Positions 33,547 to 50,878 of a stretch of 64,000 nt of DNA are shown here, piece by piece; within the stretch, counting starts at the first letter, position 1; the number at the start of each line of letters is the position of its first letter. The DNA lies in the NCBI RefSeq assembly GCF_001761365.1, contig NZ_CP017477.1:3090001-3154000 (forward strand), given 5' to 3'. Made by a program: the position numbers and the translations under genes. Below the pieces are notes generated by a model that had not been told where the DNA came from, did not search any database, and saw only the letters and a list, made by a program, of their open reading frames with translations. The stretch is from Polaribacter vadi (lineage in GTDB: Bacteria > Bacteroidota > Bacteroidia > Flavobacteriales > Flavobacteriaceae).

Positions 33547-33586
33547 TGAGTTTTTACTTGTTTTTTACCACAGTACTTTGTTGGGC

Positions 33587-34126
33587 TTAGTACTTATGTT
33601 CAATGTTAATTATTGTATTTATTAATTCTATTATGAAAACTGTAGACTGATTTTTTAATTTTTTTATATGTTCTATGTCATCGTTAATGCTCCTAAATTC
33701 AGGTATACCTAAAGAATAATCGGTAAAATTAAATCCACCTCTGTGCTTTAATCCGTTTACAGAATTCTTTATAATCTCTACTTCATCATAACCTTGCATG
33801 TTTTTCAATTCTAATGAATACTTTTTTTCAATAATACTAATTGAATTAGTTCTAGTACGTTTTAAATTTTTGTTGTCAAAAAATTCGCCATAGGGAGACG
33901 AAGCAATTAATAACCAGTGTTCTATCATAGCATTTAATTCATAGAGTATAGATCGGCGAAAGTATTGGAATGATCCAATTACTTTATCCATTTCACTGAA
34001 AGGCTCGTTTTTATCAATCAATGATTTCTTTTGTATCAAGTTTTGAAAATATAAATGCGAATTTTGAAAATAGAATTCAATAGTGTCTATTTCGAATTGA
34101 AGTAAAATGTTTGCTTTTTTATGCAC
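33587..34126 (-). CDS. Cassette 1 protein, unknown function
   Basis: The last, recombinase-distal cassette (33580-34148, borders GTTGGGC / GCCCAAC). The open frame extends to an ATG at 34183, but that lies inside the palindrome. Within the cassette the possible starts are TTG at 34147 and GTG at 34126; I chose GTG (about 179 aa). The protein is helical and Lys/Asn/Ile-rich without a signal peptide. ELNAMIEHWLL and SVNGLKHRGG vaguely recall HEPN/Cthe_2314-like helical proteins, but the evidence is too weak to assign. The stop codon directly follows the GTTGGGC border. Confidence 0.6.
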   Translation of the reverse strand: MHKKANILLQFEIDTIEFYFQNSHLYFQNLIQKKSLIDKNEPFSEMDKVIGSFQYFRRSILYELNAMIEHWLLIASSPYGEFFDNKNLKRTRTNSISIIEKKYSLELKNMQGYDEVEIIKNSVNGLKHRGGFNFTDYSLGIPEFRSINDDIEHIKKLKNQSTVFIIELINTIINIEHKY

Positions 34127-34248
34127 ATTCTTTCGTATTAAGCCCAACGTTGTTGTATATGGTTTGTTGCGTGTTTCAAGCACCTAATTTAGCAAATACA
34201 AACCAAATAGAAAATGAAGTGCACCCAAAAGTTTAGACAAATTTATAA

Positions 34249-35031
34249 TTAATTTTGATAATAATGATTTCGATATTCAGTCGGACTCATCCCATTTAAA
34301 TTTCCTTTAATTCTCTCGTTATTGTAATATTTTATATATTCTTTAATATCCTTTTTTAATTGAGATATTGAGTTGTATTTATTTAGATAAAACAACTCAG
34401 ATTTCAGAATACCAAAGAAGTTTTCTATCACAGCATTGTCTAAACAATTTCCTTTTCGAGACATACTCTGAGTAATGCCTTTCTCTTTTAATAATCTTTG
34501 ATACTGTCTCATTTGATATTGCCATCCCTGATCTGAATGTAATATTAAATTTGTTTGATCAGGTATCTTTTTAAAAGACTTTTTCAACATTATAGCTACT
34601 TGTTTAAAATCAGGTTTTTCAGATAATTGATAACTTATTATTTCCCTATTAAATAGATCAATTATTGGAGATAAATATAATTTATTTCCTAAGATTTTAA
34701 ACTCAGTAATATCGGTAGCCCACTTTTTATTTGGTCTAATAGCTTTAAAATTGCGTTGTAATATATTAGGAGCTGTTTCTCCTATATGTCCTTTATAAGA
34801 CTTGTATCTTTTAGCTCTGACTAAACTTTTCAACCCTAATTCACGCATTAACTTGAGTACTGTTTTATGATTTATTAAAGTGTCTCTTTTATTGATTTCT
34901 AAAGTGATTCTTCTATAGCCCAATCTTCCTTTGTGATGATGGTATATTTGATGAATCAACAGTTTTGTCTCTTTATATTTATCAACTAAAAGACTTCTTT
35001 TTTGATGATAATAATAACTACTTCTTGCCAT
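34249..35031 (-). CDS. IS3-family transposase OrfB (DDE catalytic subunit)
   Basis: 260 aa from the internal ATG. It contains the HTH_21 region (YHHHKGRLGYRRITLEIN) and the rve/DDE integrase core: first Asp in WATDITEFKI (about 105), second in LHSDQGWQYQ (about 165), Glu in NAVIENFFGILKSE (about 202). In the -1 frame relative to OrfA the reading continues upstream of the ATG without a stop (AEAITELRHKYDLDILLYHTN), the usual start of OrfB. The active product is therefore probably the OrfAB fusion. Confidence 0.92.
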   Translation of the reverse strand: MARSSYYYHQKRSLLVDKYKETKLLIHQIYHHHKGRLGYRRITLEINKRDTLINHKTVLKLMRELGLKSLVRAKRYKSYKGHIGETAPNILQRNFKAIRPNKKWATDITEFKILGNKLYLSPIIDLFNREIISYQLSEKPDFKQVAIMLKKSFKKIPDQTNLILHSDQGWQYQMRQYQRLLKEKGITQSMSRKGNCLDNAVIENFFGILKSELFYLNKYNSISQLKKDIKEYIKYYNNERIKGNLNGMSPTEYRNHYYQN

Positions 35032-35081
35032 GTTTGTATGATATAATAAAATATCTAAATCATACTTATGCCTTAATTCTG

Positions 35082-35603
35082 TTATGGCTTCTGCTTTTTG
35101 TTTTGCTCTTGTTGAATTAAGGCCTGTAACTTTTTTAGCAAGTCTAGTTCTGCACGTAATGATTCATTTTCTAATAAAAGTTGCTCTTCTCTTGTTAAAG
35201 GTTTATTAGACTTCTTTTTAGCTCTTTTAAATTGCATAGATTTTGGTTTACCTCTAGGTTTATGGTTTAAGCCTATAATACCCTCTTTTTTATAATTACG
35301 TTGCCATTTCATAATTACAGATTTGGTAGGAATATTAAACTCTAAACACGCTTGACTGAAAGATAATGAATCCTTGTCAATAGCTTCTAAAACTTTAATT
35401 TTAAAAGGTATGCTGTAAACTTTAGTTTCTCTAGGTAATAAGGCCTTTTTACCATATTTTTCATAAAATCGAATCCAATCATGCAGGGTAGTATGATGAC
35501 AACCTTGTAGCTTAGAAACATCTTCAACTGTTTGGTGATTATTTAAAACTTGCTTTACACAGCGAAGTTTAAATTCGTAAGTATACTTGACTTTTCTCCC
35601 CAT
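35082..35603 (-). CDS. IS3-family transposase OrfA (DNA-binding subunit)
   Basis: 173 aa with two helix-turn-helix units (YTYEFKLRCVKQVLNNHQTVEDVSKLQGC and FKIKVLEAIDKDSLSFSQACLEFNIP). A basic linker follows (KSMQFKRAKKKSNK), then a C-terminal leucine-zipper coiled coil (LLLENESLRAELDLLKKLQALIQQEQ). The gene ends in a C-AAA-AAG slippery stretch (35094-35100) at which a -1 shift joins it to OrfB. The length and double HTH fit the IS150 subgroup. Confidence 0.92.
   Translation of the reverse strand: MGRKVKYTYEFKLRCVKQVLNNHQTVEDVSKLQGCHHTTLHDWIRFYEKYGKKALLPRETKVYSIPFKIKVLEAIDKDSLSFSQACLEFNIPTKSVIMKWQRNYKKEGIIGLNHKPRGKPKSMQFKRAKKKSNKPLTREEQLLLENESLRAELDLLKKLQALIQQEQNKKQKP
35094..35100 (-). promoter_or_regulatory. 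Programmed -1 frameshift site of the IS3 element
   Basis: On the minus strand the OrfA end reads aac aaa aag cag aag cca taa. A one-base slip on AAAAAG leads into gca gaa gcc ata aca gaa tta, the OrfB frame (AEAITEL), which stays open into OrfB. Confidence 0.75.
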
Positions 35604-35715
35604 AAAAATACCCTCAAATAGTGTCTAACTTTTTGGGGGCAGTTCAAAATCCGCGAGGATTTTCGTAAGTAGGCTAGAACTAGCAATAAATTATATACGG
35701 TGTTAGCAGCTGAAC

Positions 35716-36354
35716 TTATACTAATAATTCTAAATCCGTTTTAAAAGAATTAAAATCAGTCCAGCCTAATATTTTGATTATCTCAAATGCCATATCTCGT
35801 TTGGTATAATCGGAAAAAATTTCGTTAATATCATTTTTTAAAAGCTCAAAACAATTATCAATTTTATTATTTCTAAATTTCCCCTTTTTTATTGCTTCGT
35901 CAATATGAGCAGATTGATTTCTTGATTGTATAATAATTTCACTCAAACATTGATTTCCTATTTTTCTACCACAAGGCCATTTTTTCGGGTTTCCGTAAAC
36001 AATAGATAATCCTTTCTTTGCGTGTTCTAATAAATTTCCGCATAAAGAAATAATTGAAAATTCGTGAGCAGTTAATCGTTGCTGTAAATCAGTCAGTTTT
36101 TCATTCTTGTGATAAACATCTTTGTCTGCACCAAAGTAATTATCCCAATACATTCCAACTCCAAGCATAACATCATCTGGGTCTTCAGCGTAATTTTGTA
36201 AAGCAATAGCTCTCTGATATTCGTTTTCTACTATTTTTGCTTCTTGTTCAATTTCAGTTTTTAATTTTTCAGCTCGTTTGTTATCTGTCCAGATAGCCTC
36301 CAAAACATTTGAAGCTGCAAATTCGATTTCATTAATATAATCTGATAAAGTCAT
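35716..36354 (-). CDS. Cassette 2 protein with HEPN-like RX4H motif
   Basis: A 212-aa soluble, helical protein in a cassette with borders GTTAGCAGC / GCTGCTAAC. Residues near 145 read SRNQSAHID, which fits the R-polar-X3-H motif of HEPN-domain RNases, and the surrounding helices (LTAHEFSIISLCGNLLEHAKKG and the C-terminal EIFSDYTKRDMAFEIIKILGW) fit a HEPN-type bundle. HEPN proteins are frequent in toxin-antitoxin and defence systems. The assignment rests on the motif alone. The start is 19 bp inside the cassette border. Confidence 0.6.
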   Translation of the reverse strand: MTLSDYINEIEFAASNVLEAIWTDNKRAEKLKTEIEQEAKIVENEYQRAIALQNYAEDPDDVMLGVGMYWDNYFGADKDVYHKNEKLTDLQQRLTAHEFSIISLCGNLLEHAKKGLSIVYGNPKKWPCGRKIGNQCLSEIIIQSRNQSAHIDEAIKKGKFRNNKIDNCFELLKNDINEIFSDYTKRDMAFEIIKILGWTDFNSFKTDLELLV

Positions 36355-36372
36355 TTTCTTGGTTTTGCTGCT

Positions 36373-36497
36373 AACGTTGTTGTATAAGCTTTGTTGCGTT
36401 GTTTAAGCAGTGAATTTAGTAAATAAAACACGAACGGCGAAATTCCGGAGGAATTTCCTAAGTGAGCCAAAACCAGCAATAAAGTTTATACGGTGTT
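36373..36497. repeat. attC-like palindromic site 2
   Basis: 125 bp from AAC (36373) to GTT (36495). Arms AACGTTGTTGTATAAGC.TTTGTTGC and GCAATAAA.GTTTATACGGTGTT pair; the inner hairpin is GAAATTCC..GGAATTTC. The left border pairs with that of cassette 2, the right with that of cassette 3. Confidence 0.82.
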
Positions 36498-36508
36498 GGC
36501 AACTGGCT

Positions 36509-36874
36509 TTAATTTTTCCAATGTTCAATTTTATACTTTTTCACTAAAGAATCTTTTGTCAATTCAATTTTTAGAATTTTTGTCTCAATTGGGTCAATAT
36601 TCCAACCATAATTTTCCATAATTCTATAAGCGACTGTGTTATCTTTTAAATTTGCATAATTTTCAGGTTCTCCAATTAATTCAGTTAGTTGTGAATATTT
36701 CATTCCTTTTGTTAAATGATTCTTCAAAAGGTCTTTTACCATATTCTTACGATTTTCATAAAAACCATCTGTTTGATCATTCCATTTTTGCTTATTAAAT
36801 TCCGTTTCTTTAATTCCGCAATTTGTTGACAGAAATAGAATTCCAACAGCTACTATTTTGATTATTTTTTTCAA
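36509..36874 (-). CDS. Cassette 3 lipoprotein, second gene
   Basis: A 121-aa lipoprotein with signal MKKIIKIVAVGILFLSTNC (Cys19). The mature part has a BamE/SmpA-like layout (LTKGMKYSQLTELIGEPENYANLKDNTVAYRI...IDPIETKILKIELTKDSLV). I recall this pattern from small lipoproteins, but no function is established. It begins directly after the stop of the 80-aa membrane protein, so this is a two-gene cassette. Cassette borders are GTTGGCAAC / GTTGCCAAC. Confidence 0.7.
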   Translation of the reverse strand: MKKIIKIVAVGILFLSTNCGIKETEFNKQKWNDQTDGFYENRKNMVKDLLKNHLTKGMKYSQLTELIGEPENYANLKDNTVAYRIMENYGWNIDPIETKILKIELTKDSLVKKYKIEHWKN

Positions 36875-37117
36875 TTACTTTAAAATTCGTTTTTTATAAA
36901 TTAAAATTCCGATGAAAGAAATTCCGCAAATAATAGCTAAAATGTGAAATTTTTTAATCGCTTTGCACAAGTCAATTCCAGATGTAAGTGAAATACAGTT
37001 ATTCAATTCGTTTGTTTCGTATTTTAGACTAACTTTTGAATTAAAAGCCATAAATTCAAATAATGGAATTCCAATGAAGAGTAAAGTCAAGATTATAATG
37101 TAAATTCTTCTCTTCAA
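36875..37117 (-). CDS. Cassette 3 small membrane protein, first gene
   Basis: 80 aa with two hydrophobic helices (residues 3-25 and 58-75). The intervening periplasmic segment holds two cysteines (NNCISLTSGIDLCKA) that could form a disulphide. It starts 26 bp inside the cassette border and abuts the lipoprotein gene, suggesting that the two act together. The family is not recognised. Confidence 0.65.
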   Translation of the reverse strand: MKRRIYIIILTLLFIGIPLFEFMAFNSKVSLKYETNELNNCISLTSGIDLCKAIKKFHILAIICGISFIGILIYKKRILK

Positions 37118-37142
37118 TTATTTTCGATTTTTGCTTGTTGCC

Positions 37143-37267
37143 AACGGTCTCGTATAACCGTCAGTTACGGGTTAATATGCGTTAATTTTCGGTTAAGCAC
37201 TGGCGTTAGCAATTCCGAGTGGATTCGGACGTAGTCGAATCCGCCGTAATTGCGGTTATATATTGTT
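37143..37267. repeat. attC-like palindromic site 3 (divergent sequence)
   Basis: 125 bp. AACGGTCTCGTATAACCG pairs with CGGTTATATATTGTT although both differ from other sites, a compensatory change. Inner arms are ATTCCGAGTGGATTCGGAC-like. Core AAC 37143, GTT 37265. Confidence 0.78.
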
Positions 37268-37670
37268 ACCTGCTGGCTTTTTTTAATTCAATACCTCTCA
37301 CTTTTTTCATTTTTCCATTCTTTTTTAATTCATAACCATAAACGATTAATTTTTTGCTCCGAATTTTGACCATCATCCAATTCTTTCGGTTTCCAATTTC
37401 AGTCAGAATGTAAAATCCGCCATCCTTTTTTATTTTTCCTTTATGGACTATTTGTTCAATTTGATTTTCATTATTTTTAAAATCCGACTTATAACCGATT
37501 AAATCCGTTTGTGTATATGTGGAATCCGATGTTATTTCTATTACAACAGTTCCATAATCCGATTTAGGTCCTTTCACTTCTCCGCTCCACGAATAAGTTC
37601 CGTTCAAATTTTGTCCAAATGCAAATACTTGAGAAAACATCAGAACTATTATGTAAGTTAAATTTGGCAT
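37266..37670 (-). CDS. Cassette 4 secreted protein, unknown function
   Basis: 134 aa with a cleavable signal peptide (MPNLTYIIVLMFSQVFAFGQ). The mature part is a small beta-rich domain (NGTYSWSGEVKGP, GTVVIEITSDSTYTQT, GGFYILTEIG, KLIVYGYEL) of lipocalin-like appearance. The stop codon TAA overlaps the GTT core of the downstream site. Cassette borders are GTTACCTGC / GCAGGTAAC. A 550-bp unit lies directly upstream. Confidence 0.65.
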   Translation of the reverse strand: MPNLTYIIVLMFSQVFAFGQNLNGTYSWSGEVKGPKSDYGTVVIEITSDSTYTQTDLIGYKSDFKNNENQIEQIVHKGKIKKDGGFYILTEIGNRKNWMMVKIRSKKLIVYGYELKKNGKMKKVRGIELKKASR

Positions 37671-37688
37671 TTTTTTCAGCTTGCAGGT

Positions 37689-38241
37689 AACTAGTACCTA
37701 TATGAAAAGTAGCGTTTTTAAAGCTATGATTTTATAGATATTCTATTGGTTCTTAAAAATACTTAAATTTTTTAAATAATAACTCAAGCAGCTATTTTTT
37801 ATATGGGCTGTTGTGTTTAGTATTTTCCATAATCCATCATATGAATAGTTTCGAGGATCATCTAAAAGATATCATCACTGACAGGTCTAGCAAATAGATG
37901 AAAATACGGAGTCTCGAAGACGCTACAATAGAACGCTTTTCAATTCACTTTTTTACTCTAATATGTTTTATATGCGTTTTATATGGAACGTCTTAGAGTG
38001 AAAGAATATTCAAGTTAAAGGCCAGATAATTAACAGAATACTTGACTTTCTCGTTTTTTTTAACTATCTTCAAACTGTAAAACGTTTCAATGTTTTGAGA
38101 GTGAACTCTCAACGATTTCAATCGTACAGTTTGATTTTCAAAAATCCTAAGTCAAAACCTTTAAAATTCTGCACTATAAACGCTTGAAAATTCGACAAAG
38201 TGTATTGAAAATTCCAAAAGTCTATCGATATTAAATACAAC
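37689..38241. repeat. 550-bp core-site unit, copy 1
   Basis: Runs from AACTAGTACC to AAATACAAC and lies between the AAC border of cassette 4 and the body of site 4. By eye it is identical to the other five copies. Internal features: a 63-nt palindrome (CAAACTGTA 38071..TACAGTTTG 38133, with TTGAGAGT-GA-ACTCTCAA inside at 38095-38112); on the plus strand short frames of 18 codons (37841-37897) and, in frame after a TAG, 32 codons (37898-37996); then a stem GAAAG..CAAGT/ACTTG.CTTTC ending in GTTTTTTTT (about 38001-38063). No frame of 60 codons or more. Confidence 0.9.
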
Positions 38242-38362
38242 GGTCTTGTATAAGAATAGTGCGGTTTTGTGTGCGAGGATTTTCCGAAGGAAAATCAGAC
38301 GTAACAAAATTGCACGAACTCTTGATTAAGCACTAAACTACGCATTATTTTTATACGTTGTT
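38239..38362. repeat. attC-like palindromic site 4
   Basis: 124 bp from the AAC shared with unit copy 1 to GTT 38360. Arms AACGGTCTTGTATAA and TTTTTATACGTTGTT; inner hairpin GATTTTCC..GGAAAATC. The closest relative is site 9. Confidence 0.8.
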
Positions 38363-39463
38363 GGGCATAGTTTTTTTTCTTTCGTATTCTCTTACTTCAA
38401 TTACTTTTGGTCTTAATTGAACAATTTTGTCATCCAATTTCAGGCGTTGAGATTTAGAATGCATATTTACTTTCTGTAATGATAAATTAATTTTTAAATC
38501 TGTTATTCCGAGAAATATTAATTCTTCATTTTCTTTATCACTTTTTTCAGGTGTATAGACCTCTTTATAGCTTTCATTCGGTTTTTGATATTTACTAGCT
38601 GAATTGGCAATATATTCAGCATATTCTTTTGTAGTTTTATGATTAAAGAAAATGTTATTAGTTGAATTTAAATACTGTAATATGTTCAGCTGGTCTATGC
38701 TTTTTACATCATTAATTTCGACAATTTTTTCTTTTCTATTTCCAGCTTTGTAAATGTTTTCGTCATAGAAAAACAATAAATATTCGGCATTTAATGGAAT
38801 CATCCATTGTGCTCCTAATGAGCCAAAACCATTGTGACTTCCGTGTCGCCATTTTCTCTTTTCTAAAAATTGGTTGTATTTCACAAGAGGATTGTCTGAT
38901 GTTATAAATGGTTTTTCAGATGAGTTTCTGATTAATTTATATTGTAAGTCCATACAATGCGAAATTAATCTTCTGGATTTTATTATCATTCTTTGAAAAC
39001 TCACGTCCTGCTTTTCAGAATCTTCAATCTGTTTGATAATATCCGAATTTTTATCAGCTCCTTTAGAAAGTAAATGTTCTTTAATTAATTTAGTACTATT
39101 TTGAAAATGAGTTTTTCTATTAGGATTTCTCAAATCCAAAAGAATTAAAAAGAACAGCATATCAACTTGGTCTGTTGACATATATTTTGGTAGAACTTGC
39201 TCATTTTTTATCTTTGAAAAGATAGGTGCTACTATTGATTCAATTTCTCCAAGCCAATCTTCTATTAATCCATCTTTTCCATAGAAAAATTTTTTCGATG
39301 CTTGAGTTTTTAGTTTAGAATCTCGTTTAAAATATTTGCTTTTTTTATTAAAAACTCCGATTTGGTTTTGATTGTCTTGATAAGAAAAATATCTTAAAAG
39401 AAATTTTGGAATGTAATGTTGATTTTTCTTCTCTGTATTCTCCAATCTCGTAGTTTTTCTCAA
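38351..39463 (-). CDS. Cassette 5 protein, DUF4238 family
   Basis: A 370-aa soluble protein with the DUF4238 signature: NQHYIPKFLLRYFSY near residues 14-28, then a GVFNKKSKYF motif, ...FITSDNPLVKYN near 190, and MIPLNAEYLLFFY near 225. The family is of unknown biochemistry; I recall it near defence genes. The C-terminus reads MPNNV: the codons pass through the CCCAAC border and the stop TAA is supplied by the GTATAA arm of site 4. Borders are GTTGGGC / GCCCAAC. Confidence 0.8.
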   Translation of the reverse strand: MRKTTRLENTEKKNQHYIPKFLLRYFSYQDNQNQIGVFNKKSKYFKRDSKLKTQASKKFFYGKDGLIEDWLGEIESIVAPIFSKIKNEQVLPKYMSTDQVDMLFFLILLDLRNPNRKTHFQNSTKLIKEHLLSKGADKNSDIIKQIEDSEKQDVSFQRMIIKSRRLISHCMDLQYKLIRNSSEKPFITSDNPLVKYNQFLEKRKWRHGSHNGFGSLGAQWMIPLNAEYLLFFYDENIYKAGNRKEKIVEINDVKSIDQLNILQYLNSTNNIFFNHKTTKEYAEYIANSASKYQKPNESYKEVYTPEKSDKENEELIFLGITDLKINLSLQKVNMHSKSQRLKLDDKIVQLRPKVIEVREYERKKTMPNNV

Positions 39464-39472
39464 ATTATGCCC

Positions 39473-39595
39473 AACGTTGAGTGTATGGTGTCGTAAGGGA
39501 TTGCGGGCTTCAAATTTATCAAGTTACCACCCAAAGTTGATGCGGGTGTTGCCGCTCGAAAACCTCTGAAACCCTTATGCACTATACACATTGTT
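39473..39595. repeat. attC-like palindromic site 5 (most divergent)
   Basis: 123 bp. AACGTTGAGTGTATGGTGTCGTAAGGG-type left arm pairs with CCCTTATGCACTATACACATTGTT on the right. The sequence between differs from the common inner hairpin, but the outer pairing is kept. Confidence 0.75.
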
Positions 39596-39611
39596 ATGGG
39601 GCGTATTTTGT

Positions 39612-40349
39612 TCATTTATGTATTTGAATAGAACTTTGAGTTAAAAGTGTCTCAAATTTTAAATCTTTGTCGTTAGGGTTTTTGATGAAAACTATTTTAG
39701 GCATTTGAGATTCTAGTTCAATAAAATCAAGTACACCATTTTTAATGACAATTGAAAATAGTTCACTGTATGAACTATTTGCTGGTAGATTTTTTCCTAA
39801 AAGTAAGCTTATAGCATAATTAGGTTTTAAGTCTTCAATTGATTCAAGTCTTGATATATTCCTATCATTAGCCAACAGCCATTTTCCTTCACAATCTTTT
39901 AAGGTTATGACCGTAATGTATGAAGTGATTGAACTATCTCCATAAGTCCCCATACAAATAGAAGCATGATTTTGTCCTTTATATACAAAGTACAATGTGT
40001 AATAAATATCTAGAAAAAGATTCTCTCTAAATTCTTTTTTATTTCTGTTTTCCAAAGTTCTTTCACTAGGAAAACCATCATAATAATCATCTGATATTAA
40101 TGCATGGCCGACTTCATATGTAGTGAAGGAAGTAAACAACTGAATCGCTTTCTCTGGTGTTTCTATTTGTTCGGGTGTAAACTTTTTTATATCTAAAATT
40201 TCTAGCTCCAATACTGGCTGATAGAAGTCTACAGAATCAATAGTTATATTAATATCTTTGGATAGAATAGCTTGTAAAGGTTTATCCAGTTGAGCAACAA
40301 TATTTACTGAAATCAAAAGAGTTGCAAATAGTTGTATTATCCTTTTCAT
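39612..40349 (-). CDS. Cassette 6 secreted protein, unknown function
   Basis: 245 aa with a signal peptide (MKRIIQLFATLLISVNIVAQ). The mature part shows no recognised domain; there is a mixed alpha/beta pattern with Tyr-rich YFVYKGQNHASICMGTYGDSS and a C-terminal strand MPKIVFIKNPNDKDLKFETLL. Cassette borders are GTTATGGGGC / GCCCCATAAC, one of the longest border pairs in the array. Confidence 0.62.
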   Translation of the reverse strand: MKRIIQLFATLLISVNIVAQLDKPLQAILSKDINITIDSVDFYQPVLELEILDIKKFTPEQIETPEKAIQLFTSFTTYEVGHALISDDYYDGFPSERTLENRNKKEFRENLFLDIYYTLYFVYKGQNHASICMGTYGDSSITSYITVITLKDCEGKWLLANDRNISRLESIEDLKPNYAISLLLGKNLPANSSYSELFSIVIKNGVLDFIELESQMPKIVFIKNPNDKDLKFETLLTQSSIQIHK

Positions 40350-40394
40350 ATTTTTTCTTTAGTATTCCTTCTGTGAGTTTTATTTATGCCCCAT

Positions 40395-40520
40395 AACGTG
40401 TTTGTGTAGGAAAAGTTGCGTTGTTTAAGCAATAAAGTTAGTAAATAAAACACGAACCAAGAAAATCCGTGAGGATTTTCGTAAGTAGGCTTTTACTAGC
40501 AATTTTTTTTACACGGTGTT
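40395..40520. repeat. attC-like palindromic site 6
   Basis: 126 bp. AACGTGTTTGTGTAGG and TTTACACGGTGTT arms; inner hairpin GAAAATCCGTGAGGATTTTC followed by gtaagtaggc. Confidence 0.82.
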
Positions 40521-40533
40521 GTAAGCAGTTTTT

Positions 40534-41058: not shown

Positions 41059-41181
41059 TCATTCTCGACAAAAGTCAAATTTTATTATTTATATTCAGTT
41101 AATTATGGTTTTTCAAGTTTTAGAATCTTTTTTCTTTTGTTAGTTCGAAAAATTAATCGGATTCTGATTTTAATTGCTTAC

Positions 41182-41853: not shown

Positions 41854-41864
41854 GTACGCAGTAT

Positions 41865-42695: not shown

Positions 42696-42721
42696 AAAGT
42701 TGGTGTGGTTATATTGCGTAC

Positions 42722-42847: not shown

Positions 42848-42901
42848 GGCAACTGGCTTTTATTCTTTTTTCAATTCGTTCAAGTTCTTTTTCTACTAAT
42901 T

Positions 42902-43204: not shown

Positions 43205-43205
43205 T

Positions 43206-43631: not shown

Positions 43632-43670
43632 GGTTATTATTTTTCAACGTGCTGATTTTTGCTTGTTGCC

Positions 43671-43795
43671 AACGGTCTTGTGTATGGAAAGTTGCGGTTT
43701 TGTATGCGAGGATTTTCCGCAGGAAAATCAGACGTAACAAAAATGCAACTACCTTTGTTTAAGCACTAATTTAGCAATTTTTTATACACGTTGTT
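43671..43795. repeat. attC-like palindromic site 9
   Basis: 125 bp. AACGGTCTTGTGTATGGAAAGTTGCG and AGCAATTTTTTATACACGTTGTT arms; inner hairpin GATTTTCC..GGAAAATC as in site 4. Confidence 0.82.
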
Positions 43796-44351
43796 GTAAC
43801 ACGTTTTTTATTCCGCTAAATATTTCATTCAGTTCTATTTCTCTTTTTTCAATTCCGTCCATTTTGTCAATCTTTTGTCCGAATATTTTATTCCAAAAAC
43901 CTCTTTTTGTAAAGTTATATGAATAGTTAAAGTTCGAGTCAGATTCCGCAATATATAGTTTGGATTTCAGGATTTTGTTATTTTTCACGAATTGAACTTC
44001 TTTTCCTTTTAATCCGCTTTTGAGTATTGAGAGAATTCCGTTTCTATTTCGCTCATTAAATTCCAATGCAGGATTTCCATATTCAGCAGGTTCGTTAAAT
44101 TGGTATTGATAAAAATATTCTCCTTCTACATATTTGTTATAACCAGGAACAGTCGGATTGAAAATATGCAAATAGATAAGTAAATTTTCTTTTAAATATC
44201 CAAATCGAATTTCAGTCAAAGAATTTTTGTCAGTCGATTTAAATGTCTCAATTTCCGCTTCTCCTTTGAATTCAGTTATTGGATTTTCAAATTGTCCACT
44301 GTCAATTAAAATTTGGTTAATAAACTCTTTCCAATCTTTAAATTCCTGCAT
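43782..44351 (-). CDS. Cassette 10 protein, unknown function
   Basis: 189-aa soluble protein. N-terminal helix (FKDWKEFINQILIDSGQ), a beta-rich centre (EAEIETFKSTDKNSLTEIRFGYLKENLLIYLHIFNP) and a C-terminal helix. No family recognised. It ends LQQRV: the codons cross the TTACAAC border and the stop TAA is provided by the GTATAA arm of site 9, like the DUF4238 gene. Borders are GTTGTAACACG / GTGTTACAAC. A 550-bp unit lies upstream. Confidence 0.62.
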   Translation of the reverse strand: MQEFKDWKEFINQILIDSGQFENPITEFKGEAEIETFKSTDKNSLTEIRFGYLKENLLIYLHIFNPTVPGYNKYVEGEYFYQYQFNEPAEYGNPALEFNERNRNGILSILKSGLKGKEVQFVKNNKILKSKLYIAESDSNFNYSYNFTKRGFWNKIFGQKIDKMDGIEKREIELNEIFSGIKNVLQQRV

Positions 44352-44377
44352 TTTATTGATTTGGTCAAATGTGTTAC

Positions 44378-44930
44378 AACTAGTACCTATATGAAAAGTA
44401 GCGTTTTTAAAGCTATGATTTTATAGATATTCTATTGGTTCTTAAAAATACTTAAATTTTTTAAATAATAACTCAAGCAGCTATTTTTTATATGGGCTGT
44501 TGTGTTTAGTATTTTCCATAATCCATCATATGAATAGTTTCGAGGATCATCTAAAAGATATCATCACTGACAGGTCTAGCAAATAGATGAAAATACGGAG
44601 TCTCGAAGACGCTACAATAGAACGCTTTTCAATTCACTTTTTTACTCTAATATGTTTTATATGCGTTTTATATGGAACGTCTTAGAGTGAAAGAATATTC
44701 AAGTTAAAGGCCAGATAATTAACAGAATACTTGACTTTCTCGTTTTTTTTAACTATCTTCAAACTGTAAAACGTTTCAATGTTTTGAGAGTGAACTCTCA
44801 ACGATTTCAATCGTACAGTTTGATTTTCAAAAATCCTAAGTCAAAACCTTTAAAATTCTGCACTATAAACGCTTGAAAATTCGACAAAGTGTATTGAAAA
44901 TTCCAAAAGTCTATCGATATTAAATACAAC
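44378..44930. repeat. 550-bp core-site unit, copy 3
   Basis: 553 bp including both AAC ends, identical by eye to copy 1, between cassette 10 and site 10. Confidence 0.9.
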
Positions 44931-45051
44931 GGTTTTGTATATGATACGTTGCGTGTGTAAGCAACTAATTTAGCAAATAAAAACCGAATAGAATATTCCG
45001 AAGGAATATTCGTAAGTAGGCTAGAACTAGCAATGGATTATATACCTTGTT
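44928..45051. repeat. attC-like palindromic site 10
   Basis: 124 bp. AACGGTTTTGTATATGATACGTTGCG and AGCAATGGATTATATACCTTGTT arms; the inner hairpin is changed to GAATATTCC..GGAATATTC on both sides, a compensated variant. Confidence 0.82.
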
Positions 45052-45063
45052 GCCACACGTTTT

Positions 45064-46038
45064 TTATTTCCAATAACTTATTTTTCTTGAATCAACATAA
45101 ATTGGAATGAATTCCTTTGAATTATTAAAATGTTCTTTCATTGATACATTTTTCTTAATCCAATTCCCATTTTCATCAAATTCATAGTCAAATTTCAATT
45201 CACGATGTAATTTTGAATCTTCATATTCTTTTGAGTTGATTACATTGTAAAGTATGTCAAACTCTGTAACATTATTTAAATGCTTTTTTAAATCGGCTGA
45301 TATTGTATAAGAAGTTTGTTTAGAAATTCGTCCGTTTTTCCATTCAGTTTCGCTTATCATTTCAACCCATTCTGTCTTATGTGAAGACTCAATTAAATTG
45401 TCGTTGTCGTCATACTTGTTGCGAATAGTTATTGCTGATTTGTCATTTCCTTTTTCTTTTTGAGTTGCAAGTACAAGTTTATTATTATCATTAAAGGTTT
45501 GTTCGCTGTTTACTACAGTCGTATCATTTCCTTTAACAGAAATTCGTTTTATTTGATAATCATTTTTTCCATAATAAAAAGTTGTTTTATGGTCAATTGT
45601 ATCATTAACGAAAACACTCAATTCACTCGTGTTTTTGATAGTATCATATTTCGAAATTTGAACAATATTCGATTCGTTTAATTTGTTAATAGAAACACTT
45701 TTTATGAACTCTTGGTTTTTGTTATAATCAATAACATTGGTTTGTGTAATTTCTCCATAATTATCGAAGTATTCTACTTTTTTCAATTCCCCAAAATCGG
45801 TATATTCTTCTATTTTGTTCAGAATAGGTTTATCCTCATTTTCTGTGTTCTGAAAAGTTGTTTTGTAATATTCAATTTTTTTAACTTTTCCATACAGATT
45901 GTTTCCTTGTAAAGCGTTTTTCGAATCTGAATAAATTGGCTGTAAATCAGTTCTCAATTCCGTTTTATTTTGGCAATTAAATAAAATAATTGACAGTAAA
46001 GTCAGTAAGTGAATTTTTCTCAATGTTCTTATTTTCAA
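45064..46038 (-). CDS. Cassette 11 lipoprotein, unknown function
   Basis: About 324 aa from a TTG start at 46038 that gives the signal KIRTLRKIHLLTLLSIILFNC. A second TTG at 46023 is possible, and the frame's ATG at 46083 lies inside site 11. The mature part is rich in short repeated units of the RHS/YD or MORN-like style (KKIEYYKTTFQNTENEDK, GELKKVEYFDNYGEITQ, DDNDNLIESSHK, DENGNWIKK), suggesting a surface beta structure. Borders are GTTGCCACACG / GTGTGGCAAC (partly complementary). Confidence 0.65.
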   Translation of the reverse strand: MKIRTLRKIHLLTLLSIILFNCQNKTELRTDLQPIYSDSKNALQGNNLYGKVKKIEYYKTTFQNTENEDKPILNKIEEYTDFGELKKVEYFDNYGEITQTNVIDYNKNQEFIKSVSINKLNESNIVQISKYDTIKNTSELSVFVNDTIDHKTTFYYGKNDYQIKRISVKGNDTTVVNSEQTFNDNNKLVLATQKEKGNDKSAITIRNKYDDNDNLIESSHKTEWVEMISETEWKNGRISKQTSYTISADLKKHLNNVTEFDILYNVINSKEYEDSKLHRELKFDYEFDENGNWIKKNVSMKEHFNNSKEFIPIYVDSRKISYWK

Positions 46039-46047
46039 ATGTGTGGC

Positions 46048-46173
46048 AACGTTAGGTGTATGGTTAGTTGCGTGGTTAAGCAACTAATTTAGTAAACAAA
46101 AACGAACGCGAGAAAATTCCGAAGGAATTTTCCAAATAAGCACTTGCCAAAGCAATTAATTATACACGGTGTT
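46048..46173. repeat. attC-like palindromic site 11
   Basis: 126 bp. AACGTTAGGTGTATGGTTAGTTGCG and AGCAATTAATTATACACGGTGTT arms; inner hairpin GAAAATTCC..GGAATTTTC. Confidence 0.82.
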
Positions 46174-46181
46174 GGCAATAG

Positions 46182-46757
46182 TTATTTTATTTTCTTTCCG
46201 TTTCGATATTCCTTTTTGGTTTCAGTTCCGTCGTCATTCAGGCAATATTCCGTTCCGTTTTTCTTTCCGTTAATAAATTCACATCGATAAGTCATTTTCT
46301 CTCCGTTTTCTCCATAACCCAACTGAAGTCCGTGTTTCTTTTTTCCTAAATATTGACAACTATAAATCAAATTCCCATTTTCAAATTGTTCTACAAGAAT
46401 TTTGATTCCATCGTCATTATAGGTTATAGTTTCATAAATTTCACCATTTAAACGGTACTTAATTTCTTTTGAAAGAACTAATGGTCTATTCGGATTATAA
46501 ATCGTTTTATTGGAAACTCTTATTTCTTTTCCATTATAATATAAATTACTCGACAGAATAATACCATTTTTATATTCCTCTTCATAAACTAAATGTCCAT
46601 TTGTTCGTTTGCTTTGAGCAATTCCAGAATAGAGTTCGTCAGTTGCGTTTTTATAAACCAAATTATTCTCAATGTAAACTTCTTTCATTCCGATTATTTC
46701 TTGGGAAATAAGTTCGTTGAAAGTAAAAAACATTAATAAAATCAATAGGTTTCTCAT
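46182..46757 (-). CDS. Cassette 12 secreted protein with MORN-like/YwqK-type repeats
   Basis: 191 aa with a signal peptide (MRNLLILLMFFTFNELISQ). It is followed by repeats of the toxin-antitoxin YwqK/MORN-variant type: GHLVYEEEYKNGIIL, GEIYETITYNDDGIKILVEQFENGNLIYSCQYLGKKKHGLQ, EKMTYRCEFINGKKNGTEYCLNDDGTETKKEYRNGKK. YwqK-like proteins are described as antitoxins of some polymorphic toxins, but exported MORN proteins are widespread, so the role is open. Borders are GTTGGCAATA / TATTGCCAAC. Two tandem 550-bp units lie upstream. Confidence 0.72.
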   Translation of the reverse strand: MRNLLILLMFFTFNELISQEIIGMKEVYIENNLVYKNATDELYSGIAQSKRTNGHLVYEEEYKNGIILSSNLYYNGKEIRVSNKTIYNPNRPLVLSKEIKYRLNGEIYETITYNDDGIKILVEQFENGNLIYSCQYLGKKKHGLQLGYGENGEKMTYRCEFINGKKNGTEYCLNDDGTETKKEYRNGKKIK

Positions 46758-46775
46758 TTGGTTTTAATTATTGCC

Positions 46776-47328
46776 AACTAGTACCTATATGAAAAGTAGC
46801 GTTTTTAAAGCTATGATTTTATAGATATTCTATTGGTTCTTAAAAATACTTAAATTTTTTAAATAATAACTCAAGCAGCTATTTTTTATATGGGCTGTTG
46901 TGTTTAGTATTTTCCATAATCCATCATATGAATAGTTTCGAGGATCATCTAAAAGATATCATCACTGACAGGTCTAGCAAATAGATGAAAATACGGAGTC
47001 TCGAAGACGCTACAATAGAACGCTTTTCAATTCACTTTTTTACTCTAATATGTTTTATATGCGTTTTATATGGAACGTCTTAGAGTGAAAGAATATTCAA
47101 GTTAAAGGCCAGATAATTAACAGAATACTTGACTTTCTCGTTTTTTTTAACTATCTTCAAACTGTAAAACGTTTCAATGTTTTGAGAGTGAACTCTCAAC
47201 GATTTCAATCGTACAGTTTGATTTTCAAAAATCCTAAGTCAAAACCTTTAAAATTCTGCACTATAAACGCTTGAAAATTCGACAAAGTGTATTGAAAATT
47301 CCAAAAGTCTATCGATATTAAATACAAC
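46776..47328. repeat. 550-bp core-site unit, copy 4 (tandem with copy 5)
   Basis: Starts at the CCAAC border of cassette 12. Its right AAC (47326-47328) is also the left AAC of copy 5, giving an exact 550-bp period. Confidence 0.9.
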
Positions 47329-47878
47329 TAGTACCTATATGAAAAGTAGCGTTTTTAAAGCTATGATTTTATAGATATTCTATTGGTTCTTAAAAATACT
47401 TAAATTTTTTAAATAATAACTCAAGCAGCTATTTTTTATATGGGCTGTTGTGTTTAGTATTTTCCATAATCCATCATATGAATAGTTTCGAGGATCATCT
47501 AAAAGATATCATCACTGACAGGTCTAGCAAATAGATGAAAATACGGAGTCTCGAAGACGCTACAATAGAACGCTTTTCAATTCACTTTTTTACTCTAATA
47601 TGTTTTATATGCGTTTTATATGGAACGTCTTAGAGTGAAAGAATATTCAAGTTAAAGGCCAGATAATTAACAGAATACTTGACTTTCTCGTTTTTTTTAA
47701 CTATCTTCAAACTGTAAAACGTTTCAATGTTTTGAGAGTGAACTCTCAACGATTTCAATCGTACAGTTTGATTTTCAAAAATCCTAAGTCAAAACCTTTA
47801 AAATTCTGCACTATAAACGCTTGAAAATTCGACAAAGTGTATTGAAAATTCCAAAAGTCTATCGATATTAAATACAAC
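47326..47878. repeat. 550-bp core-site unit, copy 5
   Basis: Direct tandem copy of unit 4, identical by eye. It ends at the AAC that starts site 12. Confidence 0.9.
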
Positions 47879-48000
47879 GGTCTCGTATAAGATTAGTTGC
47901 GTGGTTTAAACAACTAATTTAGCAAATAAAAACCGAATAGAAAATCCGCGAGGATTTTCGTAAGTAAGCTGGAAGCAAGCAATTAATTTTGTACGGTGTT
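47876..48000. repeat. attC-like palindromic site 12
   Basis: 125 bp. AACGGTCTCGTATAAGATTAGTTGCG and AGCAATTAATTTTGTACGGTGTT arms; inner hairpin GAAAATCCGCGAGGATTTTC. Confidence 0.82.
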
Positions 48001-48022
48001 GGCAACTGGCTTTTTTCAAATG

Positions 48023-48553
48023 CTACCAATCGTCTTTTTTTTCAGTAATTGTAAATTTTTCAGAAAAGTGTTGATTCAAAAAGCCTAAACCTCTGATGAT
48101 AATTTTTTTGTTTTTTATTTGTTCTTTACGAACAACAACATCACTAAACTCAACAAAACCTAGTTGCATTCCATAATTTGCTTTTATTGATTTTACTGTT
48201 ACTCGATATTTATTTTCTTTAAAGTCTATTAGGACTAAATAGTGTAAAGGATATTTTAATGGTATTAAGGTATTTCCCCAAGTTCCCCCATATTTTTTTG
48301 TGTTAACATTGTCTTCTCTTATTTCAAACGATAATCTATTTTCCACTTCTTGTAAATTGTCTGTTTTCAGATTACTTATTACAGTTTTTTTGAAATAGGT
48401 TAAAAGTTTATCATTTTCTTGATTGTAAACTTTATTCCATATTAAACTATTTTCAGTTACTTTAAAATTCAAAGTGTCTGTTATTTGACCTGATATGTTC
48501 CAACAAGATATAAGTCCAATTATAATTACAAAGTTTATTTTTAGTTTATTCAT
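48023..48553 (-). CDS. Cassette 13 secreted protein, second gene
   Basis: 176 aa with a hydrophobic signal sequence (INFVIIIGLISCWNISGQ, possible lipobox at ISC). The mature part contains ENSLIWNKVYNQENDKLL and NRLSFEIRED...KYGGTWGNTLIPLKYPLHYLVLIDFKENKYRVTVKSI, a pattern I recall from DUF4468-like secreted proteins of Bacteroidota (weak). It overlaps the upstream gene by eight bases, so the cassette carries two coupled genes. Confidence 0.62.
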   Translation of the reverse strand: MNKLKINFVIIIGLISCWNISGQITDTLNFKVTENSLIWNKVYNQENDKLLTYFKKTVISNLKTDNLQEVENRLSFEIREDNVNTKKYGGTWGNTLIPLKYPLHYLVLIDFKENKYRVTVKSIKANYGMQLGFVEFSDVVVRKEQIKNKKIIIRGLGFLNQHFSEKFTITEKKDDW

Positions 48554-49103
48554 TTTTTTTCCAAATTAAATTTCCTTTTTCGTCTCTTTTAGGTTTTAAG
48601 CCCATTAAACAAACACAACCTTGTTTTCTTGTGCATTTTTCGTAAGGTATAGTTTTGTTCTCAATTGCTTGTTTTATTGTGATAGTCTTTTCAGATATTT
48701 TTTTGCTTTCTTCACAATCATTTGTACCAATAATAATAAATTCCATTTCTAAATTTGAATGAAGATTAGATTCTAAATCTAAATTCACTTTATTTTCGTT
48801 ATATAATTTTTGAATTTCATTCGCTTTTTTTTGCTCAAACTTTCTTCTAAAATGAAGCATTTCAGAGTATATTCTGTCATTTCTTTTTAAAAGGTCAATA
48901 TAATTTTCTGATTGTTTAGCATTTTCATTCAACAAGTGATTAAAAATAAACCATAAGTAGTCTTCAATAATTTCAGGTCTATCTTTTTTCCAAGTCTGAA
49001 AATATGAAACAATGTTGTACTTATTCATTCCAAATTCTTCAAAGAATTCCAAATAATTTTTAAACAACCAGTCTAAATCTTTTTTTTTCCTATTTCTAGC
49101 CAT
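48546..49103 (-). CDS. Cassette 13 soluble protein, first gene
   Basis: 185-aa protein without a signal, helical in the first two thirds (NRKKKDLDWLFKNYLEFFEEFG...FRRKFEQKKANEIQKLYNEN). It has a C-terminal cysteine-containing part (NDCEESKKI, YEKCTRKQGCVCLMGLKPKRDEKGNLIWKK) that could bind metal. It is the first gene of the recombinase-proximal cassette, 32 bp from the border GTTGCCAAC. Family not recognised. Confidence 0.62.
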   Translation of the reverse strand: MARNRKKKDLDWLFKNYLEFFEEFGMNKYNIVSYFQTWKKDRPEIIEDYLWFIFNHLLNENAKQSENYIDLLKRNDRIYSEMLHFRRKFEQKKANEIQKLYNENKVNLDLESNLHSNLEMEFIIIGTNDCEESKKISEKTITIKQAIENKTIPYEKCTRKQGCVCLMGLKPKRDEKGNLIWKKNE

Positions 49104-49134
49104 TTATAAATTGTGTTCACTCTTGCTTGTTGCC

Positions 49135-49687
49135 AACTAGTACCTATATGAAAAGTAGCGTTTTTAAAGCTATGATTTTATAGATATTCTATTGGTTCTT
49201 AAAAATACTTAAATTTTTTAAATAATAACTCAAGCAGCTATTTTTTATATGGGCTGTTGTGTTTAGTATTTTCCATAATCCATCATATGAATAGTTTCGA
49301 GGATCATCTAAAAGATATCATCACTGACAGGTCTAGCAAATAGATGAAAATACGGAGTCTCGAAGACGCTACAATAGAACGCTTTTCAATTCACTTTTTT
49401 ACTCTAATATGTTTTATATGCGTTTTATATGGAACGTCTTAGAGTGAAAGAATATTCAAGTTAAAGGCCAGATAATTAACAGAATACTTGACTTTCTCGT
49501 TTTTTTTAACTATCTTCAAACTGTAAAACGTTTCAATGTTTTGAGAGTGAACTCTCAACGATTTCAATCGTACAGTTTGATTTTCAAAAATCCTAAGTCA
49601 AAACCTTTAAAATTCTGCACTATAAACGCTTGAAAATTCGACAAAGTGTATTGAAAATTCCAAAAGTCTATCGATATTAAATACAAC
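49135..49687. repeat. 550-bp core-site unit, copy 6 (recombinase-proximal)
   Basis: Identical by eye to the others. It occupies the first position of the array, between cassette 13 and the recombinase gene. Its right AAC (49685-49687) is followed by TGGTTATATGGAG, not by a palindromic site. Confidence 0.9.
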
Positions 49688-49714
49688 TGGTTATATGGAG
49701 AACAAAGGTCCTTT
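49685..49714. other. Possible attI-like junction beside the recombinase gene
   Basis: AACTGGTTATATGGAG follows the last unit and resembles only the outer arm of the palindromic sites (for example AACGGTTTTGTATATGAT at site 10), without the rest of the hairpin. The recombinase stop codon is at 49715. A simple, non-palindromic site next to the integrase is what an attI site would look like; this is inference from position and partial similarity. Confidence 0.45.
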
Positions 49715-50878
49715 TTATATCGTATTATTTCCGGATAATAGGAAGTTTTGTTCTTCTTTATTATTTTGGTTTAAAGTTAATAAAATAGTATCTAATGGAC
49801 TCGTAATATCTAATAAATCTTTCTTGGCAACATGTGTATAAATCATCGTAGTCTCTGGTTTTGCATGACCTAATAACTCCTGAATATGTCTTAACCCAAC
49901 ACCATTTTCCAGTAAATGAGTTGCATAACTATGTCGTAATGTATGCGGAGTTACTCTTTTTAAAACCTTAGCTAAAATAACACTCTTACCTAAAAATTTA
50001 CGAATACTACTTTCTGAATATCGATGTCCTTCTAATCCTTCTATAAAATAAACTTTCGGTGTGTATGTGGTTAAATAATTCAGTAAAAGAGGTAAAAATG
50101 ACGAAGCCAATACAACAAAACGATCTTTACGTCCTTTTCCACTTTCTATTTTTACTTGTTTTCGCTCAATATCAATATTCTTTAATTGTAAACTAGTAAT
50201 TTCTCCAATGCGCAATCCTGATGAATACAACAAAACAATAATAGCTCTATGTTTTAAGTTTTTAGTAACCTGCACAATGCGTAAAACTTCTTCTTGAGAT
50301 AAAACATTGGGCAATTTTCTAGATTTTTTAGGTCGTTCTAATACCAGATCATTAATTTTTGTTTTTGGACAAAAAATAATAAAAATCTTTAAGGCACTTA
50401 TAAATTGTCTTTGAGTGCTAACAGAATACTCTCTTTCTATAAAAACTTTTTCAATAAATAACTCAACACTCCTGTTGGTAAGTTCTTCTAAAGGTGTCTT
50501 TGTATGAAAATTTACAAAATCAGCAACAAAAAAAGTATACGTCTGTATGGTACTTTTACTGTATCTTTTACCTTTTAAATACAAGTAAAAATTATTTAAA
50601 ATCGTTTTTTGTTCGTTTGTTAACTTTCTTTTAAATGGTATTGTTTTGCTAATTTTGCTAGAGTTAATAATTGTTATTCCTTTAAAAGTTGTAATAACTT
50701 TATCGTAATTCTCTTTAGTGTTTTCTACGTGCCAAGCTGCTAAAGTTTTACTCCATGTAGCGCCACTAATACTTCTTATGATAGAAATGAGACCATTATC
50801 AAATTTAAATTTAATTAATAGTTTAGATGAATTGCGATGAACTTGTTGTTCTAAATAAATTGTAGGATACTTTTTCAT
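49715..50878 (-). CDS. Tyrosine recombinase of the cassette array (not classical IntI)
   Basis: 387 aa. The N-terminal segment to ~80 is an extra domain seen in many Bacteroidota integrases (KFKFDNGLISIIRSISGATWSKTLAAWHV-type), followed by a SAM-like core-binding domain (~95-175). The catalytic domain has R223 (SGLRIGE), K248 (SGKGRKDR), H312/R315 (HTLRHSYATH), H338 (LLGH) and Y347 (TTMIYTHV). The tail TTMIYTHV...SPLD resembles IntI, but the IntI-specific insertion before box II (the ALERKYP...W.W region) is missing. The gene reads toward the array, the same direction as the cassettes. Confidence 0.9.
   Translation of the reverse strand: MKKYPTIYLEQQVHRNSSKLLIKFKFDNGLISIIRSISGATWSKTLAAWHVENTKENYDKVITTFKGITIINSSKISKTIPFKRKLTNEQKTILNNFYLYLKGKRYSKSTIQTYTFFVADFVNFHTKTPLEELTNRSVELFIEKVFIEREYSVSTQRQFISALKIFIIFCPKTKINDLVLERPKKSRKLPNVLSQEEVLRIVQVTKNLKHRAIIVLLYSSGLRIGEITSLQLKNIDIERKQVKIESGKGRKDRFVVLASSFLPLLLNYLTTYTPKVYFIEGLEGHRYSESSIRKFLGKSVILAKVLKRVTPHTLRHSYATHLLENGVGLRHIQELLGHAKPETTMIYTHVAKKDLLDITSPLDTILLTLNQNNKEEQNFLLSGNNTI

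Follow-up and report, generated by a model that had tools for sequence, protein, structure and literature searches.

A chromosomal cassette array of Polaribacter vadi with attC-like hairpins and an IntI-related recombinase that lacks the IntI insertion

The window analysed here, a 64,000-nucleotide stretch of the Polaribacter vadi chromosome (assembly GCF_001761365.1, contig NZ_CP017477.1, positions 3,090,001 to 3,154,000), contains a gene for a tyrosine recombinase followed by an attI-like site and by an integron-like array, in which 13 gene cassettes are accompanied by a geneless 550-bp cassette present six times and which extends down to position 33580 (Table 1). The initial annotation of this DNA had described 13 cassettes of one or two genes in a single direction, ending at a tyrosine recombinase that is co-directional with them and lacks the insertion specific to IntI, and all of this was borne out: every cassette lies on the minus strand, and the recombinase gene occupies 49715-50878. 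It had also counted twelve AAC...GTT palindromes of 122-126 bp. Eleven of these matched, at full length, a covariance model trained on 62 sites, of which five come from the window, and the twelfth proved to be split by an insertion sequence, which we take to be of the IS3 family, leaving matches at 34146-34244 (37 bits) and 35646-35682 (a weak match of 14 bits, E = 0.32). The total of twelve was too low. The array holds 18 attC-like sites, 12 behind gene cassettes (the split one included) and six more in the 550-bp units, because each of these units ends in an attC-like site of its own; every cassette except the last ends in such a site. For the same reason, and because each copy starts at G|TT (the bar marks the crossover) as gene cassettes do, we regard the 550-bp sequence as a geneless cassette rather than as the outside repeat that had been thought to head and interrupt the array. 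Its site scored 56.0 bits (E = 1.1e-11) with a model from whose training set the sites of the 550-bp units were absent.

Table 1. Features of the cassette array and its recombinase gene, in the order in which they follow the gene (positions in the window).
Feature	Position	Strand	Remarks
Recombinase, 387 amino acids	49715-50878	-	extra N-terminal domain of about 90 residues, SAM-like core-binding domain, catalytic domain R-K-H-R-H-Y without the IntI insertion
attI-like site, TATTATCC ... ATATAACCAG|TT	49686-49760	-	putative crossover between 49687 (G) and 49686 (T)
Geneless 550-bp cassette, copy 1, at attI	49137-49686	-	own attC-like site 49135-49258
Cassette 1	47878-49136	-	open reading frames (ORFs) 48546-49103 and 48023-48553; attC-like site 47876-48000
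Geneless cassette, copy 2	47328-47877	-	attC-like site 47326-47449
Geneless cassette, copy 3, in tandem with copy 2	46778-47327	-	attC-like site 46776-46899
Cassette 2	46050-46777	-	ORF 46182-46757, MORN_2 match under the cut-off; attC-like site 46048-46173
Cassette 3	44930-46049	-	ORF listed as 45064-46083 (listed start precedes the cassette start); attC-like site 44928-45051
Geneless cassette, copy 4	44380-44929	-	attC-like site 44378-44501
Cassette 4	43673-44379	-	ORF 43782-44351; attC-like site 43671-43795
Cassette 5	42724-43672	-	ORFs 43206-43631 and 42902-43204 (CdiI_3 immunity protein); attC-like site 42722-42847
Cassette 6	41734-42723	-	ORF listed as 41865-42818, DUF2971, PADLOC PDC-S31 candidate; attC-like site 41732-41853
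Geneless cassette, copy 5	41184-41733	-	attC-like site 41182-41305
Cassette 7	40397-41183	-	ORF 40534-41058; attC-like site 40395-40520
Cassette 8	39475-40396	-	ORF 39612-40349; attC-like site 39473-39595
Cassette 9	38241-39474	-	ORF 38351-39463, DUF4238; attC-like site 38239-38362
Geneless cassette, copy 6	37691-38240	-	attC-like site 37689-37812
Cassette 10	37145-37690	-	ORF 37266-37670; attC-like site 37143-37267
Cassette 11	36375-37144	-	ORFs 36875-37117 and 36509-36874; attC-like site 36373-36497
Cassette 12	34148-36374	-	ORF 35716-36354; attC-like site 34146 to about 35704, split by the IS3-like element
IS3-like element inside the attC-like site of cassette 12	34249-35603	-	two ORFs: HTH_28, rve
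Cassette 13 (last)	33580-34147	-	ORF listed as 33587-34183; own R'' at 33580; no model match after the cassette

The junctions of the cassettes carry a signature that the initial annotation had not reported. All 13 gene cassettes of the window begin at G|TT, and in each the first 9-10 bases (that G included) match exactly the reverse complement of the cassette's own R'' end. Pairing of this kind, across the whole length of a cassette, makes sense if the cassette was once a circle closed at G|TT, as integron cassettes are. The same pairing was present in relatives, where among 134 adjacent site pairs from 12 loci the cassette start paired with its own R'' over at least 9 bases in 109, as compared with 7 for the start of the neighbour and 2% for random starts. 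The covariance model is blind to these variable start bases; 150 of 159 model matches were aligned and used in the test (9 were not aligned), and in each of the 12 loci all sites used lie on one strand, in arrays downstream of the recombinase gene. Linked chains of start, R'' and next start numbered 441 in 52 loci (the window, 11 flavobacterial loci after a Moranbacteria locus had been left out, and 40 further loci), against a mean of 27 in three sets of Markov-resampled sequence. The count on the opposite strand offers no control here, since the chain test is symmetric under reverse complement. Cassettes separated by attC-like hairpins with a G|TT junction, the arrangement expected of an integron array, are thus what was found.

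The attI-like site, likewise absent from the initial annotation, follows the recombinase gene of the window as CCATATAACCAG|TT, directly ahead of the array. Of the 52 loci, 35 have an exact ATATAACNNG|TT no more than 220 bp from the stop codon and nine have a looser form, and the sequence behind the TT differs between most loci. This conserved ATATAACNNG|TT beside the gene corresponds to the attI of an integron, and cassettes would be inserted there. Upstream of the crossover, many loci have a TATCC...GGATA motif pair (seen by eye). The Bacteroidota-type -7 promoter element has the consensus TAnnTTTG, and of 41 loci 20 had TAnnTTT[G/A] on the upstream side of attI, where 4.2 were expected, 18 of them at 15-16 nucleotides from the crossover. 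Behind 20 more distant homologues, from this family and other families of the class, two forms of the site are common, TATAAACAAG|TT and a palindrome that has TTATCC or TTAGCC as its last bases, next to the crossover. A different attI layout, in which a near-perfect palindrome precedes G|TT, was seen in loci L176, L175 and L082.

The attC-like sites appear to be built for folding of the bottom strand. In the 62 aligned sites, whose L stem has 16 pairs, 97.9% of cells pair on the bottom strand, as opposed to 79.6% in shuffles, and 166 cells are changed on both sides, as opposed to 44.5. The top strand pairs 85.6% of the cells; the bottom strand holds 149 G.T and only 4 A.C cells, one pair is G.T in all 62 sites, and the G after AAC is invariant in all 62. 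When the arm mismatches of a larger set were read on the top strand (262 of 288 sites, 26 being dropped for poor arms), 590 were A.C, 9 were G.T and 394 were of other kinds, so the near-pairs wobble nearly all on the bottom strand only, suggesting that wobbles choose the strand. Predicted DNA folds of these 288 sites (six of 294 having been removed by an end-pattern filter) were stabler on the bottom strand in 280, by a mean of -3.7 kcal/mol; in an interior-resampled control this was so in 218, with a mean of -1.4 kcal/mol. The circle form was stabler than the array form in 272 of the 288 and equal to it in 12, a result that is partly built in because the sites were chosen for start/R'' pairing. 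Classical extrahelical bases lie by definition on the R''-L'' arm (PMC2727003), and since the 16-bp L stem has no inserted base on its R''-L'' side in any of the 62 sites, they are absent from that stem. The better-folding bottom strand of an integron site is present here, and the extrahelical bases in the L stem are not. The R' box GTTRRRY occurred in 23 of 288 sites and in 9 of 46 canonical control sites, and it does not separate the two sets, both scans having required GTT. A count of single bulges (8 left and 81 right of 238 sites here; 4 and 1 of 39 in the control) was set aside as badly posed. Locus L224, from a genome (G401) with a true IntI, was left out of the canonical control for the single-bulge and extra-base counts because its sites look like those of the new type; it was kept for the counts of arm helices and of the R' box.

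The NCBIfam scores of the recombinase were 208 bits for the integron integrase TIGR02249 (cut-off 265) and 203 bits for XerA (cut-off 220). In an alignment of 140 sequences, the span from the catalytic K to H was 64-66 residues in all 68 members of its family and 106 in all 41 IntI proteins; it was 71-75 in 14 XerD-like proteins, 65-75 in 14 XerC-like proteins and 66-68 in two XerA proteins. The I2 additional domain near patch III that marks integron integrases is thus missing, and the six catalytic positions read R, K, H, R, H and Y in 68 of 68 members. The new family has, in addition, a median of about 96 residues before the core, as compared with about 3 in IntI. Residues 1-85 (window 50624-50878) form a domain that is predicted to be beta-rich (predicted local distance difference test score, pLDDT, mostly 84-90 over residues 1-70), that had no match in a Pfam search, and that may possibly be the attI-binding part. 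The structure model as a whole, whose best fold matches were XerA and IntI4, was not used as evidence (mean pLDDT 72, predicted template modelling score 0.45, residues 338-386 with the catalytic tyrosine below 50).

A phylogeny of the recombinase with IntI and XerC/D had been proposed as a check in the initial annotation. In a 78-row tree, the new family and IntI (49 rows) grouped together against XerC, XerD and one Moranbacteria protein (29 rows) with support of 100/100. IntI formed one clade in this tree at 100/100 and the new family one clade at just 92/54; in a second tree that included two XerA proteins, these values were 100/100 and 92/80. The first 75 residues of the new family were removed for the 78-row tree and columns filled in under half of the rows were dropped; the trees used 31 and 29 of the 68 new rows and 18 and 14 of the 41 IntI rows, after removal of duplicates and of rows of odd length. 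The new clade lies beside IntI, not inside it, and is separate from XerC and XerD; the genome of the window also has two Xer-like genes. A tail, TT.IYTHV...P.D, is common to the four new and two IntI rows that were compared and is absent from the compared Xer rows. This shared tail, together with cassettes that in both systems start at G|TT and pair there with their own R'', joins the two systems. The initial annotation had proposed a separate Bacteroidota cassette-capture system that either converged on integrons or split from them early. Our results support such a system and favour the split over convergence, because the recombinase clade and IntI group together against Xer.

Set beside IntI integrons, the array has in common with them a tyrosine recombinase and an adjoining attI-like site, one-directional cassettes whose starts are complementary to their own R'', and attC-like hairpins with the R''/L''/L'/R' layout, the G|TT crossover, the G after AAC and a bottom strand that makes the better hairpin. 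It differs from them in the missing insertion and the extra N-terminal domain of about 90 residues, in a longest ungapped arm helix with a median of 16 (238 sites) rather than 9 (46 candidate sites beside true IntI, which include decoys), in a strand signature made of G.T wobbles, in its repeated geneless cassettes, and in a recombinase gene that is co-directional with a downstream array instead of divergent from it. The first chains listed lie upstream of intI in 11 of the 13 IntI loci with chains and downstream in the other two (L225 and L227); co-directional intI also occurs in Treponema, and divergence is hence not strictly defining. With XerC, XerD and XerA the recombinase shares the fold, the catalytic residues and the lack of the IntI insertion, and databases name some of its relatives XerD or XerA. 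It differs from these proteins in its place in the tree (surely for XerC and XerD, less surely for XerA) and in occurring mostly once per genome, beside cassette arrays.

We consider it probable that the array is a chromosomal integron of a second kind, with a recombinase that is related to IntI and lacks the insert, as far as it is known from sequence; the family would then likely be an insert-less sister branch belonging to the Bacteroidia. By our sequence tests the array works like an integron, and by its enzyme and by its sites it falls outside the definition of an IntI integron. In the mechanism that we propose, the recombinase is predicted to join circular cassettes to attI just behind its own gene. 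A cassette circle would expose its attC-like site as single-stranded DNA, for example during replication or transfer, and the bottom strand would fold by pairing of R'' with R' and then of the 16-bp L stem. The recombinase would pair this hairpin with double-stranded attI and exchange one strand at G|TT; replication would resolve the junction, as in classical integrons, and the cassettes are predicted to be read from a promoter inside attI.

The same observations might be explained, though we think this unlikely, by a classical IntI integron whose integrase lost its insert secondarily and is perhaps degraded. The new clade adjoins IntI in both trees, its sites share with attC the G|TT junction and the G after AAC, which PMC2727003 gives as an attC feature, and a Polaribacter phage that has model-positive sites also has a site that IntI1 joined to attI1 (PMC9892861). 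Against this, every member of the family lacks the insert yet keeps all six catalytic residues, and the family has its own N-terminal domain and its own attI sequence. Its arrays, moreover, share cassettes across genera. Matches ending at or near G|TT were found between loci of different genera at 95.7% identity over 996 bp (L062 and L076, integrases 46% identical), 94.2% over 1006 bp (L061 and L076, integrases 47% identical), 93.1% over 810 bp (L062 and L089, integrases 38% identical) and 88.9% over 1252 bp (cassette 3 of the window and L054, integrases 59% identical), and within one genus at 97.3% over 857 bp (L070 and L073, integrases 77% identical); only 24 matches of at least 350 bp were found, several with ends inside attC-like sites or away from junctions. 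Finally, provided that the Xer proteins are the outgroup, the simplest history has IntI gaining the insert only when the two lines had parted, and a loss would be an extra step.

Homologues of the recombinase at E <= 1e-70 were present in 117 of 397 genomes of its family, the Flavobacteriaceae, with one match in all but two of them (four candidates scored per genome), and at E <= 1e-60 in 113 of 395 genomes of the class; at E <= 1e-20 there were at least 6892 proteins (best 7999 scored); XerD, integrase and tyrosine-type recombinase were the names seen among the best 120. True IntI scored above its cut-off in 105 of 395 genomes of the phylum, and of the matching genomes one was from the same class and none from the same family. 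In this family, 106 of 120 genomes (at most 29 scored in each) yielded attC-like sites at E <= 1e-6. These 106 include 34 of the 35 that have the recombinase at E <= 1e-70, by comparison of the two lists by hand; among 14 IntI-bearing genomes of other classes, five had matches at E <= 0.01, the best of 51 bits. Some draft contigs break off soon after the recombinase stop codon (at 129 bp in G334:C2 and at 136 bp in G128:C11), as repeated cassette sites would cause, and array sizes in drafts are therefore underestimates.

That the recombinase is a passenger and that another enzyme moves the hairpins seems to us improbable. This explanation could draw on the many genomes that have sites but no homologue at E <= 1e-70, and on the sites that stand singly in other parts of the genome, but in most of the fetched loci a conserved site immediately after the gene marks the beginning of the array, and linked cassettes follow even diverged homologues in 13 of the 20 further loci mentioned above (a count made with no resampled control), several of the remaining seven being cut short by contig ends. 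Still less probable is an integration array of phage or plasmid type that merely resembles an integron, as might be suggested by the model-positive sites of the Polaribacter phage and by 63 plasmid records with relatives of the recombinase, several in Bacteroidota: all of these relatives are less than 60% identical, the array of the window is chromosomal, none of the 19 window proteins scanned had a phage structural Pfam match, and the recombinase occurs nearly always once per genome. Least credible of all are transcription terminators or RNA hairpins between operons, multiplied by homologous recombination with no site-specific step; palindromes placed after genes and six identical 550-bp copies would fit, but the pairing favours the bottom strand, whose sequence is not that of the sense transcript (read on the top strand, mismatches are 590 A.C and 9 G.T), the starts pair with ends hundreds of bases away, which a terminator would not need, and an Rfam scan of positions 31500-52500 gave 11 matches at E <= 1, none at its gathering score.

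Several observations nonetheless weigh against an integron of a second kind. Cassette capture is held to require the I2 insert (PMC7790495), and an enzyme that lacks it might for that reason not act on folded sites. In topology tests with XerA, a grouping of the new family with XerA was not clearly rejected (approximately unbiased test, p-AU 0.054); a grouping of IntI with XerA was (0.030). Eight of the 52 loci showed no attI-like site in the 220 bp next to the stop codon, and the -7 element of the window itself is imperfect. Base make-up alone yields some bottom-strand bias, as the resampled folds show, and the arms are not free of extra bases: inside the L stem, the arm opposite R''-L'' has one extra base in 11 of 62 sites and more than one in 2, and a wider alignment that extends into the terminal part places extra bases on the R''-L'' arm of 49 and on the opposite arm of 89 among 150 sites, as compared with 38 and 16, respectively, among 38 canonical sites. 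Sites were also present in 72 of 85 genomes that have no homologue at E <= 1e-70, so the sites may outlast or outrun the enzyme, as clusters of attC sites lacking integron integrases (CALINs) do, or may be served by more distant homologues. In the genome of the window, 17 of the 36 sites found by the model (35 of which lie on the same strand) are in this array and 19 are outside it; seven of the latter have their own start of at least 9 bases upstream, from which single cassettes seem to sit elsewhere in the genome too.

A bolder version of our interpretation, to which we give only slightly better than an even chance, is that the Bacteroidia hold their own second branch of integrons, which split from the IntI line before I2 was gained. 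Recombination of folded, single-stranded attC would then predate I2, and the choice of the bottom strand would be encoded by invariant G.T wobbles instead of extrahelical bases; the system would be among the commonest cassette systems of flavobacteria, overlooked because integron searches require the insert. Among published accounts, a review counts the Bacteroidota among integron carriers (PMC8618304), and a survey of tyrosine recombinases treats the insertion as essential for integron function, yet as not fully conserved in an integron-like subgroup (PMC8138268). The I2 helix has been described as necessary for capture and absent from any other protein, and the study of the origin of the integrase as hampered by missing intermediates (PMC7790495; PMC4792948). 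The passages retrieved from the open-licence PMC literature on integrons in Bacteroidota and on the extra domain contained no description of this system, which is a weak indication of novelty. If our interpretation is right, such a missing intermediate would exist in a living sister clade that has no I2 but does have attI, attC-like sites and shared cassettes; the steps of integron evolution could be separated and the origin of integrons would become testable. Surveys based on the insert would also have missed a gene-exchange system with sites in most of the 120 genomes of the family that were scanned.

The nearest described relatives of the sites may be the CALINs of the Polaribacter phage P12002L, in which the new model had five matches, four of them at E <= 1.3e-7. 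These differ from the present array in that no integrase is reported there (PMC9892861). IntI1 joined one of two tested attC sites of this phage to attI1 through the bottom strand, and its top strand yielded no recombinants (PMC9892861); a site of this neighbourhood may thus be usable by a classical integrase. The window array is not a CALIN, its recombinase being present. A second, partly degraded cluster of eight attC-like matches lies elsewhere in the genome (C1:484058-507710; L208 and L209), with eleven further matches at other places; the only close recombinase match of the genome is that of the window, and this cluster would fit the term CALIN. Locus L224 has weak matches of the new model (34-48 bits) beside its IntI, in an orientation that by eye is opposite to the classical one, and mixed or captured arrays may therefore exist.

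The six copies of the 550-bp cassette are 100% identical across 553 bp, which would speak for recent copying. Apart from them, the 40 of 65 candidates scored in the 3.81-Mb genome gave a single match to the unit, of 25 bp, plasmid records contained no DNA match, and the sole homology in an array outside the window was 33 bp in L011. Among 376 catalogued cassettes of the loci, 55 had no sense ORF of 60 amino acids, some of these being artefacts of the chain finder. A promoter role for the 550-bp unit was considered and dropped, TTG-N17-23-TAnnTTTG being found on neither of its strands. Such a role is unsupported for geneless cassettes in general, because the motif is somewhat denser per base in them and has no sense bias (6 sense and 6 antisense matches in 36,314 bases; 44 and 35 in 372,146 bases of gene cassettes). 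Geneless kinds that recur within one array were found in L065, L074 and L083 from the list of repeats and in L062 and L070 by eye, and in L083 the recurring geneless cassette also stands directly behind the recombinase.

The majority of the cassette proteins of the window had no Pfam match above the cut-off. Those that could be named include the immunity protein of cassette 5, which matched CdiI_3 at 91 bits and whose partner gene had no match in the Pfam search, and a defence candidate, the DUF2971 protein of cassette 6, which matched PDC-S31 at 128 bits.

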